A DNA stretch of 35,490 nucleotides, taken from the IMG/VR virus record IMGVR_UViG_3300049847_000076, positions 1 to 35,490 of that record. One strand, written 5' to 3'. This document shows, in pieces, positions 6,857 through 34,773 of this stretch (its first letter is position 1; the number at the start of each line of letters is the position of its first letter). The notes under the pieces are model-generated. The model saw only the letters and a program-made list of their open reading frames with translations. It did no database searches and was not told where the DNA came from. Both the position numbers and the translations under genes were made by a program. Source of the stretch: a virus.

Positions 6857-7414
6857 CTAATTCATTGCGACTACTTCCATGTCGTGTACTTGCATCGTTT
6901 CTGCTGTCGATCCAGAACGTAATGCTTGTACACTAATGATTAAAGCCGCTGTTAAATCGCAAGCCGCTGACACTACTGGAGCGGAAGCAGGAATAAGTAA
7001 TGGTTGTAATGTAGAGGCGATCACAGCATTGTTAAAATGAGCTTTGCCCGTACAGAATAGTGTACCTGTCGATCCAATAGAGCGACAATGTACAAATGCT
7101 TCTAATGCCCACGACAGATTAGTCTGGGAAGCGGTTAAGGCTACGGCTGCACTAGAAGCAAGAAGGACACCGTTAGCTGCCGCTCCAGTTCCGTAGTATA
7201 TCCCAAATGATAAGTTACCTGGAGTTGCCGCAGTTGTAATACGCCCAAATAATCGAATACGAAGTTTCTTACCGATACGTGCAAAGTATTGACCGCCTAG
7301 AACTGGAAAATTAGAAGCAGGATACAGAGCAAGATTAGTTGTAGATAATGTAACTGCGGCAATGTCAGTACCGATAAATGGTTCGCGTAGATCGTTGTAG
7401 AAAGGACCGTCCAT
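6857..7414 (-). CDS. Putative virion structural protein (185 aa)
   Basis: A beta-rich Ala/Thr-rich protein that starts MDGPFYNDLREPF, with a central RIGKKLRIRLFGRITTA strand pair and a segment NLSFGIYYGTGAAANGV. The composition and repeated short strands are those of a jelly-roll or beta-sandwich tail/decoration protein. AAGGAAC is placed 7 bases before ATG 7414. It lies between a 209-aa structural candidate and the 53-aa gene, in the tail appendage part of the array. No specific family is recognised; the virion role is inferred from context and composition. Confidence 0.6.
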   Translation of the reverse strand: MDGPFYNDLREPFIGTDIAAVTLSTTNLALYPASNFPVLGGQYFARIGKKLRIRLFGRITTAATPGNLSFGIYYGTGAAANGVLLASSAAVALTASQTNLSWALEAFVHCRSIGSTGTLFCTGKAHFNNAVIASTLQPLLIPASAPVVSAACDLTAALIISVQALRSGSTAETMQVHDMEVVAMN

Positions 7415-14034: not shown

Positions 14035-14083
14035 AGTATACTCTTGAGTATTCTTTCAGAATTCTAGAAGAACGAAGTATACT
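14035..14083. repeat. Iterated AGWATWCT palindrome array, copy E1
   Basis: AGTATACT, AGTATTCT, AGAATTCT and AGTATACT are spaced about one helical turn apart in the gap between tape measure and minor tail genes. The sequence is nearly identical to 20936-20984. The last palindrome overlaps the tape measure stop codon. It may act as an operator cluster or a hairpin. Confidence 0.75.
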
Positions 14084-16452: not shown

Positions 16453-16490
16453 AGTGTACTCTTGAGTATTCTTGAAGAATTAAGTATACT
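16453..16490. repeat. Iterated AGWATWCT palindrome array, copy E4
   Basis: AGTGTACT, AGTATTCT and AGTATACT occur in a row, with a partial AGAATT between them. It is a degenerate version of the arrays at 14035-14083 and 20936-20984 and lies between the tail tube leader repeat and the zinc-ribbon gene. Confidence 0.6.
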
Positions 16491-16512
16491 AGAGTAAGTG
16501 AATAGTGATGTA

Positions 16513-16838: not shown

Positions 16839-17429
16839 CTATGCACAGGATAGTGGGTTGTCTTTGGGATAGAACGTAGGCGATTGAAAGGTTTGGTAGG
16901 TCATGTATCCAGCAATTTTATCTCTTTCAGATGATGGCTGAGTCAGAAAGAATCCTGGATAAAGATGTGTAGGGTTAAGGGTAGTCATTCGATGTACGAA
17001 TGTCTTTGCTATGGAGAATCGCTTTTGTGCTGGATTTGTAGTCTCTGTCTGAGCTATTAAATCATTCAGTTCTACAAATAGTTCTAGTGATTGCAGCGAG
17101 TCTGTAATAGTTTGATGTGTGTCGTGCATTTCTCCATTGTCTGTGTATATGATTCCTTGCCTATCGTTAGGTGTAGATCGCATACGTTGAATGAGGTTGA
17201 TCCTGAAGTATACTACCTCTCCCCTGAAGTCTGCATCTGGACGAACTGTTACAATGGACTCAGGAGAAATAACTATGTAGCGTTCGCCCATAGAAGGAGG
17301 TGGCTTTCCTTCAGGTAGAGCAATGATCTCTTCTGCTTTTATTCCAGGAATAGCAGTGGACTTTAGACGAGCAAGAACTACATTAACAATGTAGGAACAT
17401 GGCGTCATTCTAGTTTTTATTGTTGCCAT
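16839..17429 (-). CDS. Putative tail terminator or head-tail joining protein
   Basis: A 196-aa protein that begins MATIKTRMTPCSYIVNVVLARL and includes IVISPESIVTVRPDADFRGEV, RMRSTPNDR and a long C-terminal helix/loop region. Size and position (after connector-type genes and just before tail tube) fit a tail terminator. ATG 17429 follows GATAGG with proper spacing; a TTG at 17459 in the same frame would add ten residues encoded by repeat R2 and is less likely. AGTATACT occurs inside at 17207. Function is inferred from order only. Confidence 0.5.
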   Translation of the reverse strand: MATIKTRMTPCSYIVNVVLARLKSTAIPGIKAEEIIALPEGKPPPSMGERYIVISPESIVTVRPDADFRGEVVYFRINLIQRMRSTPNDRQGIIYTDNGEMHDTHQTITDSLQSLELFVELNDLIAQTETTNPAQKRFSIAKTFVHRMTTLNPTHLYPGFFLTQPSSERDKIAGYMTYQTFQSPTFYPKDNPLSCA

Positions 17430-17434
17430 AACGT

Positions 17435-17486
17435 ACCTATCTTGTATTAGTGAAATCAAATCGATTTCTTGTCGAAATCAATTCGA
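17435..17486 (+). repeat. Dispersed 32-bp repeat, copy R2, with extra half-copy
   Basis: It matches R1 (107-139) with one or two changes and is followed by a second AATCAATTCGATT half at 17473. GAAATC and GATTTC arms can pair across the element. It fills the gap between two leftward genes. Confidence 0.7.
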
Positions 17487-19374: not shown

Positions 19375-19405
19375 AAAAACCTGCCCCAGTGTGAACTAGG
19401 GCAGG
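19375..19405 (-). terminator. Intrinsic terminator after the major capsid gene
   Basis: On the leftward strand CCTGCCC (complement of 19399-19405) pairs with GGGCAGG (complement of 19380-19386) over a 12-base loop and is followed directly by TTTTTATT. A GC-rich 7-bp stem with a U-run is the standard intrinsic terminator form. It would separate the abundant capsid message from the downstream connector genes. The 123 bases between it and the capsid stop codon hold two AGTATACT copies (19443, 19465) and no gene. Confidence 0.8.
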
Positions 19406-19528
19406 CTCCCCTATCAACCATGCCTCATCGACGAGGTTTGTAAGTATACTCAGTACTGCTACCGAGTATACTTATGTGGGCGAGAGGTACTGGGAGGTTA
19501 CTGATGCCCGCCAGATCTCTCATAGGAA

Positions 19529-20701
19529 TTAGAATACGACTGTCAGTTGGTAAGGAGCGTTAGGTTCTACAATGACTGGTGCTCCATTGTAAAGCATCTT
19601 AACGTCCGTTGCTGGTGGATCAGTCGTTAGCTCTGTGCCGAAGCCGAAGCCGTAGATGATCTCTGCTGCTCCTTGAAGGAGGTTCCATCTCATTGGTTCC
19701 GAACCAACAACCATATCAGACCAGTCCCCAGGAGGAGGAGTAATGATAGCGGTATTGGCTGGAATGTACGGGTTCCAGTTCGAGGAATTGATCTGTGCTG
19801 CAATGTCTTCTGTTGTTCCTGGAGTTACATATCCTTGATTGTAGATATGGAACTTGTACTCTGGCAAGCCGCCGAATACTACAGTAACACCAGTGTCAGG
19901 AAATACTTGATTAGGAGCAATTTCCTTCATTGGGTTAAGGGTACTGAAGATCTTGTTCACTGCGCCACCCATGCCTTGGATGGTAGAGTTGTTGAATAGG
20001 AACTTACCTACAGTAGCATTTACCCACACATCGGTGAGAGTACGTCCGTTGATACGTGCTGATTGATAGTTTAGATTCATCAATTGAGAACGAATATCAG
20101 CGGAAGGATTGTCCCATGATACATCGATAATACCGCCAGCATTAGTCAAGTTGGATGCTGGAATGTTCGATGGATTAGACACTACTTTAGATCCATCAGA
20201 GAACTCGCATAGGTTAAGGATGTTAGATCCTGTGCTCTGCGGTTTCATTCCAAATCCACCAGAGAACATACGTACTGCCATGAACTCTAAGGAGTTCTGC
20301 ATACGAGTTTTGAGGTACTGGACTTGCTTGGCGAAGTATACTTGACCCCCAGTATTAACTGGTGCTGCTTGGTTCATTCCCATAGTTCGGGATGCAAAGA
20401 TCTTCTCATCTTCGATACCGATGGAATTGTACTGTCGAGGAACAGTAATAGGAATGGTGCCTACTGGCTTGCGATTGATTCGATTTGGAGGAGCACCAGG
20501 AGCACTCATTGGACTGAGCGAACGGGTTCCTTCAAAGATATCGTATTGTCCTGATCGTCCTAGGATTCGTTGAGGATTTGGTTTGGCCATACCTAGACCG
20601 TAGTAGGTCGAGAAGGTAGTGCCAGGAGCGTGTATTCGCTCGATGAGTTTCATAACGTATGGAACTCGGAATAGTTGCTCGTATGCTACGCCTGCTGTCA
20701 T
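19529..20701 (-). CDS. Major capsid protein, lambda gpE-like family
   Basis: It forms the icosahedral shell (HK97 fold). The 390-aa product has the gpE-family layout: an N-terminal segment leading to a TYYGLGMAKPNPQRI region, RNR/PVGTIPITVPRQYNSIGIEDEK, the EDEKIFASRTMG helix, a central FAKQVQYLKTRMQNSLEFMAVRMF spine helix, then the P-domain and LPEYKFHIYNQGY near residue 280, as expected for the conserved C-terminal strand set. Order protease, decoration, then this gene matches lambda C-D-E. AAAGGAC precedes ATG 20701. The leader forms two exclusive hairpins and there is a terminator downstream, both consistent with heavy regulated expression. AGTATACT at 20335 is inside. Confidence 0.88.
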   Translation of the reverse strand: MTAGVAYEQLFRVPYVMKLIERIHAPGTTFSTYYGLGMAKPNPQRILGRSGQYDIFEGTRSLSPMSAPGAPPNRINRKPVGTIPITVPRQYNSIGIEDEKIFASRTMGMNQAAPVNTGGQVYFAKQVQYLKTRMQNSLEFMAVRMFSGGFGMKPQSTGSNILNLCEFSDGSKVVSNPSNIPASNLTNAGGIIDVSWDNPSADIRSQLMNLNYQSARINGRTLTDVWVNATVGKFLFNNSTIQGMGGAVNKIFSTLNPMKEIAPNQVFPDTGVTVVFGGLPEYKFHIYNQGYVTPGTTEDIAAQINSSNWNPYIPANTAIITPPPGDWSDMVVGSEPMRWNLLQGAAEIIYGFGFGTELTTDPPATDVKMLYNGAPVIVEPNAPYQLTVVF

Positions 20702-20708
20702 CTGTGTT

Positions 20709-20759
20709 GTCCTTTGGACCTAAGTCCATGTTATTTTGAAGTTAGGTCCATTGTGGACC
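20709..20759 (-). promoter_or_regulatory. Alternative hairpins at the capsid gene ribosome binding site
   Basis: In the leftward leader, GGTCCA and TGGACC (20745-20759) form a 6-bp hairpin with a 3-base loop. Alternatively TGGACCTAA (complement of 20742-20750) pairs over 9 bp with TTAGGTCCA (complement of 20715-20723), whose end adjoins the Shine-Dalgarno AAAGGAC. The two share one strand, so only one can form. The second fold could restrict ribosome access. Confidence 0.55.
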
Positions 20760-20785
20760 GTTAGAGTTTTAGATAAGTACACTGT

Positions 20786-20838
20786 ACCTATCTTATATTG
20801 GTGAAATCAATTCGATTCCCTATCGAAATAAATTCGAT
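20786..20838 (+). repeat. Dispersed 32-bp repeat, copy R3, with extra half-copy
   Basis: It matches R1 at 107-139 except for a few changes (TTATATTGG for TTGTATTAG) and is followed by a degenerate half-copy with ATTCGATT, as at R2. It lies in the long leader between decoration and capsid genes. Confidence 0.7.
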
Positions 20839-20922
20839 TGAGTATACAGTAGCACACCGTTCTAACTTATCAGTTTCTCTTGGAATAGAGATTGCTTCGT
20901 AGGTAGCTTCTTCGTTTGTCAA
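20788..20922 (-). CDS. Possible 44-aa ORF with TTG start in the capsid leader
   Basis: The frame from TTG 20922 reads LTNEEATYEAISIPRETDKL and then a segment with ERCATVYSIEF, ending at TAG 20790-20788. Upstream the frame stays open through the palindrome array to the decoration gene stop. Composition looks protein-like, but no convincing ribosome binding site exists and the last third is repeat R3. It may be a decayed gene or chance. No function is recognised. Confidence 0.22.
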   Translation of the reverse strand: MTNEEATYEAISIPRETDKLERCATVYSIEFISIGNRIDFTNIR

Positions 20923-20935
20923 TCCGTAAAGGATA

Positions 20936-20984
20936 AGTATACTCTTGAGTATTCTTTCAGAATTCTCGAAGAACGAAGTATACT
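20936..20984. repeat. Iterated AGWATWCT palindrome array, copy E2
   Basis: AGTATACT (20936), AGTATTCT (20948), AGAATTCT (20959) and AGTATACT (20977) have centres 12, 11 and 18 bp apart. It differs from copy E1 (14035-14083) at about one position. It lies just after the decoration gene stop codon. Confidence 0.75.
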
Positions 20985-20992
20985 CGATTGGA

Positions 20993-30103: not shown

Positions 30104-30376
30104 CTAACCAACCATTAGAGCGTATGTTTTGCCAGTCGTAGCACATAGTACGTTAATGCTATTTACTGGACAATGTGCAGGACTATTATACCAGGATGCT
30201 CCAGATACTATCTTCAGATGCCCTGTAGTCGCTGCTCCTCCAAAGTTTAGATACATATCCGTATCTGATGTATTCTGTAGTTCTATGTACGATCTGGATC
30301 TAGCTGCATCAACAACTTGAGAAGTTCCTCCAGAAGTAATAGTTCCTGCTGTCACAGTTGGCTTAATTGTAAACAT
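30104..30376 (-). CDS. Small beta-sandwich virion protein, paralog of 30820-31134
   Basis: A 90-aa protein. TITSGGTSQVVDAARSRSYI, ELQNTSDTDMYLNFG and a later CPVNSINVLCATTGKTY align by eye with GTAQQI, FLEIKNNAAQVLWVNFG and CPTGLVSVVGATTANKF of the 104-aa product of 30820-31134. The pattern AGGT-Q-A-R-xLEIxNxxxxxLWVNFG is a recurrent phage virion protein that I recall near fibres. It may be a capsid fibre or decoration subunit. AGGAATATAGGA is upstream of ATG 30376, partly within a TATCTTCCAGGA element. Confidence 0.65.
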   Translation of the reverse strand: MFTIKPTVTAGTITSGGTSQVVDAARSRSYIELQNTSDTDMYLNFGGAATTGHLKIVSGASWYNSPAHCPVNSINVLCATTGKTYALMVG

Positions 30377-30411
30377 TCCTATATTCCTGGAAGATAGTGT
30401 TGTATAGAAGA

Positions 30412-30465
30412 AGTATACTTTAGTATTCTCTTCGAGAATTCTGAAAGAATACTCAAGAGTATACT
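30412..30465. repeat. Iterated AGWATWCT palindrome array, copy E3 (most complete)
   Basis: Five units in strict mirror order: AGTATACT (30412), AGTATTCT (30422), AGAATTCT (30435), AGAATACT (30446), AGTATACT (30458). Centres are 10, 13, 11 and 12 bp apart, about one helical turn each. Order and sequences read the same on both strands. It is the reverse complement of the E1/E2 arrays with extra sequence. It lies upstream of gene 30104-30376. Confidence 0.85.
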
Positions 30466-30553
30466 AGCCCGCTATTCTTTCGATATTTAAGTAGCGATAT
30501 TGCTATCGTCGAATCAGTATTGCGGTACACTGTCCTGTATCTAGTACTCTGTG

Positions 30554-30596
30554 TAGAAAAGAGCCTGCCCCTAGTGCGAATGGTCTAGGGGCAGGC
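30554..30596 (-). terminator. Intrinsic terminator after the structured RNA region
   Basis: GCCTGCCCCTA (30563-30573) and TAGGGGCAGGC (30586-30596) form an 11-bp perfect stem over a 12-base loop. On the leftward strand it is followed by TCTTTTCT. The opposite strand lacks a T-run, so the terminator serves leftward transcription. It lies 6 bases past the three-way junction element. The stem shares CCTGCCC/GGGCAGG with the capsid terminator at 19375-19405. Confidence 0.75.
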
Positions 30597-30602
30597 GTTG
30601 TG

Positions 30603-30667
30603 GCACTAAGAACAAGTTCCTGTCATCCGAACTTTTGCTTCTGTCGTGGGAGAAGCGTTCTTAGTGC
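30603..30667 (-). ncRNA. Candidate structured RNA with a compact three-way junction
   Basis: P1: GCACTAAGAAC (30603-30613) pairs with GTTCTTAGTGC (30657-30667), 11 perfect bp. Inside it, AAGTTC (30614-30619) pairs with GAACTT (30629-30634), 6 bp with a 9-base loop, and GCTTCT (30637-30642) pairs with AGAAGC (30651-30656), 6 bp with an 8-base loop. Only two bases in the junction are unpaired. It is noncoding as far as I can see and is followed directly by a strong terminator in the leftward direction, as at the 3' end of a small RNA. No known RNA family is recognised; a DNA-level junction is also possible. Confidence 0.6.
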
Positions 30668-30693
30668 GTTGTAAGTCAGTATACCTGTTCGTA

Positions 30694-30809
30694 GACCTAT
30701 AAGGGGGACCAAGTATACTGTATGAAATACGTACCGTATCGGGTGTGGACAGCCCCCTTTGCAGGTCAAGCCAGATGATACTTGCTGGAAGTGTATGTAT
30801 TCATAGGTC
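30694..30809 (-). ncRNA. Second structured segment upstream of the three-way junction
   Basis: GACCTAT (30694-30700) pairs with ATAGGTC (30803-30809), 7 bp, enclosing AAGGGGG (30701-30707) with CCCCCTT (30753-30759), 7 bp, and a weaker CCAG/CTGG arm near 30771-30788. A second AGGTC at 30763-30767 can compete for GACCT, so two folds are possible. It lies between gene 30820-31134 and the 30603-30667 element. AGTATACT at 30712 is in one loop. Whether the two segments form one transcript is unknown. Confidence 0.4.
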
Positions 30810-30819
30810 CGGTGTACTC

Positions 30820-31134
30820 TTACTTCTGTACGATATAGGAGAACTTGTTAGCTGTGGTAGCTCCCACTACAGAAACTAGACCAGTGGGGCAATAGTTGGG
30901 AGGAGAACGCCATGTATCGCCTACACCGATTGCTGCTACTTGCACTCCAGAGTCAATGGCTGCTACTGCTCCAAAATTGACCCATAGAACTTGTGCTGCG
31001 TTGTTCTTGATTTCTAGGAAGATACGTCCTGGTTGTGCAGGTAGGATCTGTTGTGCTGTGCCGCCTGCTGTGATGGTGGCGTTTACTACTGTGCCTACCC
31101 CTCGACGGGGAACTGTGATTGCTTCGAATGCCAT
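30820..31134 (-). CDS. Small beta-sandwich virion protein, paralog of 30104-30376
   Basis: A 104-aa protein, beginning MAFEAITVPRRGVGTVVNA, with ITAGGTAQQILPAQPGRIFL, EIKNNAAQVLWVNFG, GDTWRSPPNYCPTG and ATTANKFSYIVQK. It shares the LEIxNxxxxxLWVNFG core and the CPxxxxxVxxATT ending with the downstream paralog. The family looks like a single beta-sandwich that I associate with small phage head or fibre proteins. AAAGGAAACATC precedes ATG 31134. The gene is followed by a structured region and a terminator, so it may be a separate, abundant transcript. A candidate promoter is upstream at 31311-31339. Confidence 0.65.
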   Translation of the reverse strand: MAFEAITVPRRGVGTVVNATITAGGTAQQILPAQPGRIFLEIKNNAAQVLWVNFGAVAAIDSGVQVAAIGVGDTWRSPPNYCPTGLVSVVGATTANKFSYIVQK

Positions 31135-31386: not shown

Positions 31387-31617
31387 TTAGTCTCTTCCTG
31401 GTGGAGTAGTCCCTTCAGCGTCTAATGCTTGTAATAGCTTCTGTATTCGTTCTGAGCTATTGTTCAGTAGTATCTCTAGCTCTTTGTATTTCTGTACGAT
31501 GTGCTCAGGCACTTCGTTGACAGGAAAGCTCTCTCGAATAGCATGGTATAAACTTCCTGATATACCTTCGATATCTAAGTCTCTTCCACCTAAAGATAAC
31601 AAATGTTTCCACTGCAT
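31387..31617 (-). CDS. Small helical hypothetical protein (76 aa)
   Basis: Starting at ATG 31617 the product reads MQWKHLLSLGGRDLDIEGIS and then a coiled-coil-like helix with VQKYKELEILLNNSSERIQ and LLQALDAEG. AAAGGAAGTATACTATG gives an excellent ribosome binding site with the palindrome in the spacer. An in-frame start at 31647 would run through that site and is less likely. It follows terL directly, so a packaging or small-terminase-like accessory role is conceivable, but the sequence gives no motif for it. Not recognised. Confidence 0.6.
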   Translation of the reverse strand: MQWKHLLSLGGRDLDIEGISGSLYHAIRESFPVNEVPEHIVQKYKELEILLNNSSERIQKLLQALDAEGTTPPGRD

Positions 31618-31638
31618 AGTATACTTCCTTTGAAATAG

Positions 31639-31654
31639 CGAAATCAATTCGATT
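31639..31654 (+). repeat. Dispersed 32-bp repeat, copy R4, partial
   Basis: Only the right half (GAAATCAATTCGATT) is kept, between terL and the 76-aa gene, with AGTGTACT at 31660 close by. The association of this half-repeat with a palindrome copy is also seen at R1 and R3. Confidence 0.55.
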
Positions 31655-33770: not shown

Positions 33771-33803
33771 GGTAGTATACTTACTATTTTATTTTCTATA
33801 ATT

Positions 33804-33830
33804 GAATTGATTTCACGAATACAAGATGGG
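33804..33830 (-). repeat. Dispersed 32-bp repeat, copy R5
   Basis: The inverted copy of R1: on the leftward strand it reads CCCATCTTGTATTCGTGAAATC and so on. It lies in the 120-bp gap upstream of terL, in the middle of a larger inverted repeat CTATAATTGA/TCAATTATAG (33795-33804, 33891-33900). Confidence 0.6.
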
Positions 33831-33866
33831 TTTTATTTAATAGACGATATTTAATTGGGTGTATAG

Positions 33867-33903: not shown

Positions 33904-34046
33904 AATTGGGCCATTGAAGAGAGGATTAGAGGCATTCGAGGATCGTCATATCGGTCGTGAGCGTCTCGAATATCATCCAGGTTATCGGTCGGTACGAGGA
34001 CGGTGAGGTCCATATCGAGCGGATAGAGGGGATCGTTTGGGTCCAT
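33891..34046 (-). CDS. Small acidic protein (51 aa)
   Basis: ATG 34046 follows AAAGGAACTTAATC, a good ribosome binding site. The product begins MDPNDPLYPLDMDLTVLVPT and contains DDIRDAHDRYDDPRMPLI; it is rich in Asp and Pro. The frame overlaps the 3' end of the RuvC-like gene by 65 bases in another phase. No homolog is recognised, but the ribosome binding site, the position right upstream of terL and the acidic character support a real gene, perhaps a packaging or regulatory helper. Confidence 0.65.
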   Translation of the reverse strand: MDPNDPLYPLDMDLTVLVPTDNLDDIRDAHDRYDDPRMPLILSSMAQLVYN

Positions 34047-34773
34047 GATTAAGTTCCTTTGTGTGTGGTAGTATACTAGATAATTTACTAGGGGTTGGGA
34101 TTGGTGGAGGGGTATGGTCAGTGGGTATTTTGCGTCCTAGAGGTATACTAGGGACATTATTACGGACTGTCAAGGGAATTCTTTCAGGATTTTGGTACTG
34201 AAGGTAGCCGTAGAGAGCAATTAGTAGTGCATCTGCTGTAGCATGCGTGATCGTAGATACTGGTAAACCCTTGTTAGGACCAGATTTGCATTCGCGGTTA
34301 AGGAAAGGGAAACACTTTATAGCTAAATTTTTGGTAATATTCTTATCTCCCTTGGATAGACAGGCTAAAAACCCCTGCCACTTGCGGGGAGACACCAAAT
34401 TAGGGGGGTATCCTGCTGCAATACAGATTCCTTCTAACTGCCCAAGTGACCTAGCTAGCTTCTTATGTGCTTGGACAGAGAAATTGTTAGAATTATGGGT
34501 GTTTAGCATGGGTAACTGAGGCTCTTCTAGGAAGATTTCGCAATGAGTATCTGGTGGGATTTCACTATCGATGTAGGTAGTAGGATTAGGTGCGGAATTG
34601 TGAGTGGAGTTAGTATACTGTGGTCCTCCCCCCGCCCTATATTCCTGGAAGATAACGGCTAGTTGTGCCAATGAGTAATCAGCCAGTGAGTATACTATCG
34701 TCTCTTTGAATGAATAGAGCGGTATTATTGCTATTCCTCCTGATAGTCCTGGATCTATTCCGATGATGAACAT
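33982..34773 (-). CDS. RuvC-like Holliday junction resolvase
   Basis: A 263-aa protein that should cut branched DNA before packaging. RNase H-fold motifs: Asp7 in MFIIGIDPGLSGGIA, Glu83/Glu84 in IFLEEPQLP, SPRKWQGFL near residue 128, and Asp181 in HATADALLIALYG. The core ends near residue 195; a Pro-rich, poorly conserved tail of about 65 residues follows and overlaps the 51-aa gene. Between the first two motifs is a divergent insert with a copy of the TATCTTCCAGGAA motif plus G-rich tail, read as VIFQEYRAGGGP. The start overlaps the upstream gene by 19 bases. AGTATACT is at 34612 and 34689. Confidence 0.88.
   Translation of the reverse strand: MFIIGIDPGLSGGIAIIPLYSFKETIVYSLADYSLAQLAVIFQEYRAGGGPQYTNSTHNSAPNPTTYIDSEIPPDTHCEIFLEEPQLPMLNTHNSNNFSVQAHKKLARSLGQLEGICIAAGYPPNLVSPRKWQGFLACLSKGDKNITKNLAIKCFPFLNRECKSGPNKGLPVSTITHATADALLIALYGYLQYQNPERIPLTVRNNVPSIPLGRKIPTDHTPPPIPTPSKLSSILPHTKELNHGPKRSPLSARYGPHRPRTDR

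Follow-up and report, generated by a model that had tools for sequence, protein, structure and literature searches.

The longest intergenic gap in the late gene array of a viral genome record carries a structured element, a perfect three-way junction followed by a terminator hairpin, which is real and unusual and unlikely to have arisen by chance. The record, IMGVR_UViG_3300049847_000076 from IMG/VR, was analysed as a window of 35,490 bases, in which profile matches mark capsid, terminase and resolvase genes and the late genes form a long leftward array. The gap (30377-30819, 443 nt) is flanked by two small genes that are paralogues of each other (32% identity, E 6e-15), and the longest open reading frame wholly within it, checked as a candidate small protein, has 48 aa and a TTG start. 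In the leftward direction, the gap contains a foldable segment (30785-30677), the junction (30667-30603), 6 nt, the terminator (30596-30555) and a hairpin repeat (30465-30412), arranged with the flanking genes as follows:

30820-31134, minus strand: gene for a 104-aa protein (phrog_22789), upstream of the gap, with the junction in its 3' untranslated region
30677-30785, minus strand: foldable segment with competing stems, including the alternative hairpin 30720-30707/30690-30677
30603-30667, minus strand: three-way junction, in the order P1 (11 bp), P2 (6 bp), AA, P3 (6 bp)
30667-30657/30613-30603, minus strand: P1 stem, 11 bp
30637-30656, minus strand: P2 hairpin, 6 bp (30656-30651/30642-30637), loop CCCACGAC
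30614-30634, minus strand: P3 hairpin, 6 bp (30634-30629/30619-30614), loop GGAUGACAG
30555-30596, minus strand: predicted intrinsic terminator, stem 30596-30585/30574-30563 of 12 bp with 9 GC pairs, 10-nt loop
30412-30465, strand not given: hairpin repeat bounded by AGTATACT, between the terminator and the downstream gene
30104-30376, minus strand: gene for a 90-aa protein, downstream of the gap, paralogue of the 104-aa gene

A compact junction and a putative terminator

The first-pass annotation had described three perfect stems of 11, 6 and 6 bp meeting with two unpaired bases, and this is what 30667-30603 contains: all pairs are Watson-Crick, the sole unpaired corner bases are the AA at 30636-30635, and the other two corners have none. 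A loop-loop contact between P2 and P3 was considered and rejected, with at most 2-3 pairs found by eye. The terminator hairpin with its U-run does lie 6 nt past the junction and is GC-rich, as the same annotation had it, but its stem has 12 bp and not 11, and it falls outside the range 30603-30809 that was given for the element. Its tail, UCUUUUCU, occupies 30562-30555, its 9 GC pairs compare with at most 6 in 20 shuffles, and no other terminator-like site was found on the window's minus strand. A GC-rich hairpin and then a U-run is the sequence signature of intrinsic (Rho-independent) termination, and on that signature the site qualifies as a putative intrinsic terminator.

How unusual is such a fold? 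By a pair-count measure built after the finding was known, the best perfect junction has 23 pairs. The whole window was shuffled 400 times with dinucleotides preserved, and no shuffle reached 23, the maximum being 21 and the mean 14.8. When G-U pairs and 3 unpaired bases were allowed, one of eight shuffles beat the observed junction (27), so it is perfection and compactness that set the junction apart. Folding of 30540-30819 gives a z of -6.1, and at transcript lengths from 65 to 758 nt the predicted pair probabilities are at least 0.849 for the three stems and at least 0.977 for the terminator. Two gaps without terminators, 19381-19500 and 20701-20820, fold about as strongly in a sliding-window comparison based on mononucleotide shuffles; folding energy alone is thus not distinctive, whereas the perfect junction together with the terminator is.

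These figures bear on one alternative, which we regard as unlikely: that the terminator alone matters and the junction has no function, being an inverted repeat that is fortuitous or decaying. Such an idle junction would be consistent with the larger junction seen in one shuffle under looser rules, and with the fact that the element was singled out only after 35 kb had been read. The perfect-pair count argues against it, as do the stability of the junction in its predicted transcript context and the mere 6 nt that separate it from the only site of its kind on the strand.

The structured end of a transcript or a DNA element

The junction and terminator consist of 35 pairs, every one of them Watson-Crick. 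The plus strand can therefore form the junction as well, and the sequence is compatible with a palindrome acting at the DNA level. The element could then be a cruciform, a replication origin, a site of packaging or recombination or a region bound by protein, with the RNA fold incidental, an explanation that we consider rather unlikely. DNA would serve equally well for this pairing, the junction search picks up both strands, and two DNA repeat families have members in the gap, which is the longest of the late array. However, no repeat reaches into the junction, the arms of P1 and of the terminator occur once each, and nothing in a coarse composition profile points to an origin at the gap. RNA is favoured since the U-run is present on one strand only and lies downstream of a gene on that same strand. 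The first-pass annotation had also pictured the junction extruded in DNA as a substrate for a resolvase encoded in the window; a RuvC-like resolvase gene is indeed present (33982-34773, phrog_1770, E 9e-16), while its proposed action on the junction found no support.

The most likely and most economical reading is that the element forms the 3' end of the packaging-gene transcript. In its full form, which we hold with moderate confidence, this reading has the junction as the structured 3' end of a leftward transcript running from the terminase to 30820, ended by the intrinsic terminator and perhaps released as a stable RNA of ~110 nt. A leftward phage transcript would carry the packaging genes, large terminase first and then the 86-aa and 104-aa genes; the polymerase, on leaving the 104-aa gene, would make the junction and then the 12-bp hairpin and U-run, where it would stop. 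Both structures, junction and terminator hairpin, would shield the 3' end, and a cut further upstream could yield the stable ~110-nt RNA. The earlier suggestion of a phage small RNA or a 3'-UTR RNA holds as to position, the element being intergenic, on the coding strand and directly followed by the sole minus-strand terminator-like site, while transcription, termination at the U-run and a junction that adds stability or is released are all three what we infer. No sigma-70-like promoter (9/12 or better) was found just upstream of the junction on the minus strand; if the host uses such promoters, an RNA derived from the 3' UTR is more likely than one transcribed from a promoter of its own.

The upstream segment and the iterated palindrome

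A second foldable segment with competing stems had been noted upstream of the junction, and we confirmed it at 30677-30720, where the balance shifts with the transcript ends: the alternative hairpin has a mean pairing of 0.87, 0.77, 0.10, 0.09 or 0.07, depending on the ends chosen. This hairpin holds two copies of a palindrome, AGTATACT at 30712-30719 and the one-base variant AGTATACC at 30678-30685. Since AGTATACT reads the same on both strands, each copy can pair with any other, and the competing stems may have arisen as a by-product of a DNA motif. Competing stems are not by themselves evidence for a riboswitch-like element.

The wider puzzle of the window is this palindrome. Its 57 copies compare with about 1.6 expected, and the next commonest 8-base palindrome has 5; 30 of the 57 lie within the 3,434 intergenic bases of the 35,490, and 24 are inside genes. 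Bases outside the 8-mer are not clearly conserved across the sites in the window. A role as the -10 box of sigma-70 promoters was rejected, TTGACA not being enriched upstream and no -35 box being found, and so was a host-wide iterated palindrome, as none of 13 genomes reached through the pattern approaches the density of the window. The one AGTATACT cluster that was examined there is a local repeat cluster, and no comparable density was found among the whole viral records or genomes counted.

Several other repeats and folds were observed in the window. A hairpin repeat of ~50 bases, mostly bounded by AGTATACT, has four intergenic copies, one of them inverted (14035-14083, 16453-16501, 20936-20984 and 30412-30465). 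In the gap that follows the major capsid gene (19422-19528), two AGTATACT copies make a 15-bp hairpin with no U-run after it, and the 291-nt gap before that gene (20702-20992) has a strong minus-strand fold in which a hairpin closely precedes the start codon. Near several gene starts, in both orientations, there is a repeat with GAAATCAATTCGATT or close variants of it (100-138, 17428-17466, 20779-20817, 31616-31654 and 33800-33831), possibly an operator or promoter; its 17-base core occurs once each in six viral contigs without clear kinship. The minus-strand motif ATCTTCCAGGA is found at or just before late-gene start codons (9863, 11314, 18254, 22852 and 30374).

Relatives and comparison with known systems

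Protein scans of IMG/VR with the terminase, the major capsid protein, the 104-aa protein and the portal returned no relatives; these scans need an exact 8-residue stretch, so that distant relatives may be missed, and records very near the window were possibly left out. A blastn search of the gap against phages and plasmids gave no homologue, and a search for the exact P1 stem pattern gave no match. That the IMG/VR scans and blastn showed no conservation of the junction is in keeping with an idle junction beside the terminator. Rfam 15 has no match in the window at the gathering score, and a relaxed search of the gap gave chance-level matches only, among which a spliceosomal RNA scored best (E 0.063). 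A covariance model built from the one sequence found itself and only weak or chance matches in the window, nothing in 100 loci and nothing in 294 genomes of one phylum, which were drawn through a Planctomycetota MAG, the phylum being a guess and only distant terminases having been found there.

The packaging RNA (pRNA) of phi29 contains a three-way junction, as the first-pass annotation had noted. The junction is common to both, but the element matches no Rfam family and hence not the pRNA model, and the large terminase encoded here matches the terminase families of ordinary tailed phages; a packaging link or a relation to pRNA is not supported. Some RNAs of the GOLLD and ROOL type are known from phages, and they are far larger than the junction element. 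GOLLD, ROOL and other large ornate RNAs are structured non-coding RNAs (PMC12286853), a trait that they would share with our element, whose gap has no Rfam match.

The small RNAs encoded by phages, which include lambda OOP, DicF and others (PMC12197685), offer a closer comparison in kind. Like these, the element is carried by a phage and is short and structured, and its sequence predicts a 3' end resembling a Rho-independent terminator; unlike them, it is a predicted RNA, with no recognised promoter of its own and no sequence relative.

The put RNA of phage HK022, about 70 nt long, forms two stem-loops in a V and lies downstream of early promoters (PMC9378689). Compared by size and architecture, not by sequence, the junction resembles it in having about 65-70 nt (65 here), two neighbouring stem-loops and a place in a phage operon with terminators downstream. 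By analogy, it might act in cis on readthrough of the terminator, such that the leftward structural genes would be reached only under some conditions. Consistent with such a role, only this one terminator separates the packaging genes from the structural genes, the junction comes just before it, and the segment further upstream can fold in alternative ways. In contrast to the V of put, which has no long closing stem, the 11-bp P1 encloses both hairpins, and the element's place in the genome is another, 40 nt before the U-run and not after early promoters. We judge this role to be quite unlikely.

Could the element act on other transcripts? The P2 hairpin is complementary to mRNA near 7097-7120, with 11 + 6 pairs around a 4-nt bulge (-29.2 kcal/mol), a pairing found after searching and equalled by 1 in 200 letter shuffles and by none of 200 matched hairpins. 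The second-best complement on the same strand, with 13 of 14 positions, is at 30861-30874 in the element's own upstream gene. Since the search took in two hairpins and both strands, and the 7097-7120 site lies inside coding sequence, trans pairing is a lead only, and we treat a base-pairing role in trans as a further and weaker guess. To the larger idea of a new phage small RNA family, in which a 3'-UTR-derived junction of ~110 nt pairs through P2 with late mRNAs and tunes the amounts of virion proteins, we give little credence.

Implications

The junction-terminator element is so far a single, unreplicated instance. Provided that it is transcribed, it would be a compact RNA of the phage of which no relative has been described, and it lies at the one stop signal that can be recognised between the packaging and structural genes. 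It would then also offer a simple test system, a junction before a terminator, for 3'-end stability, small RNA release or readthrough.
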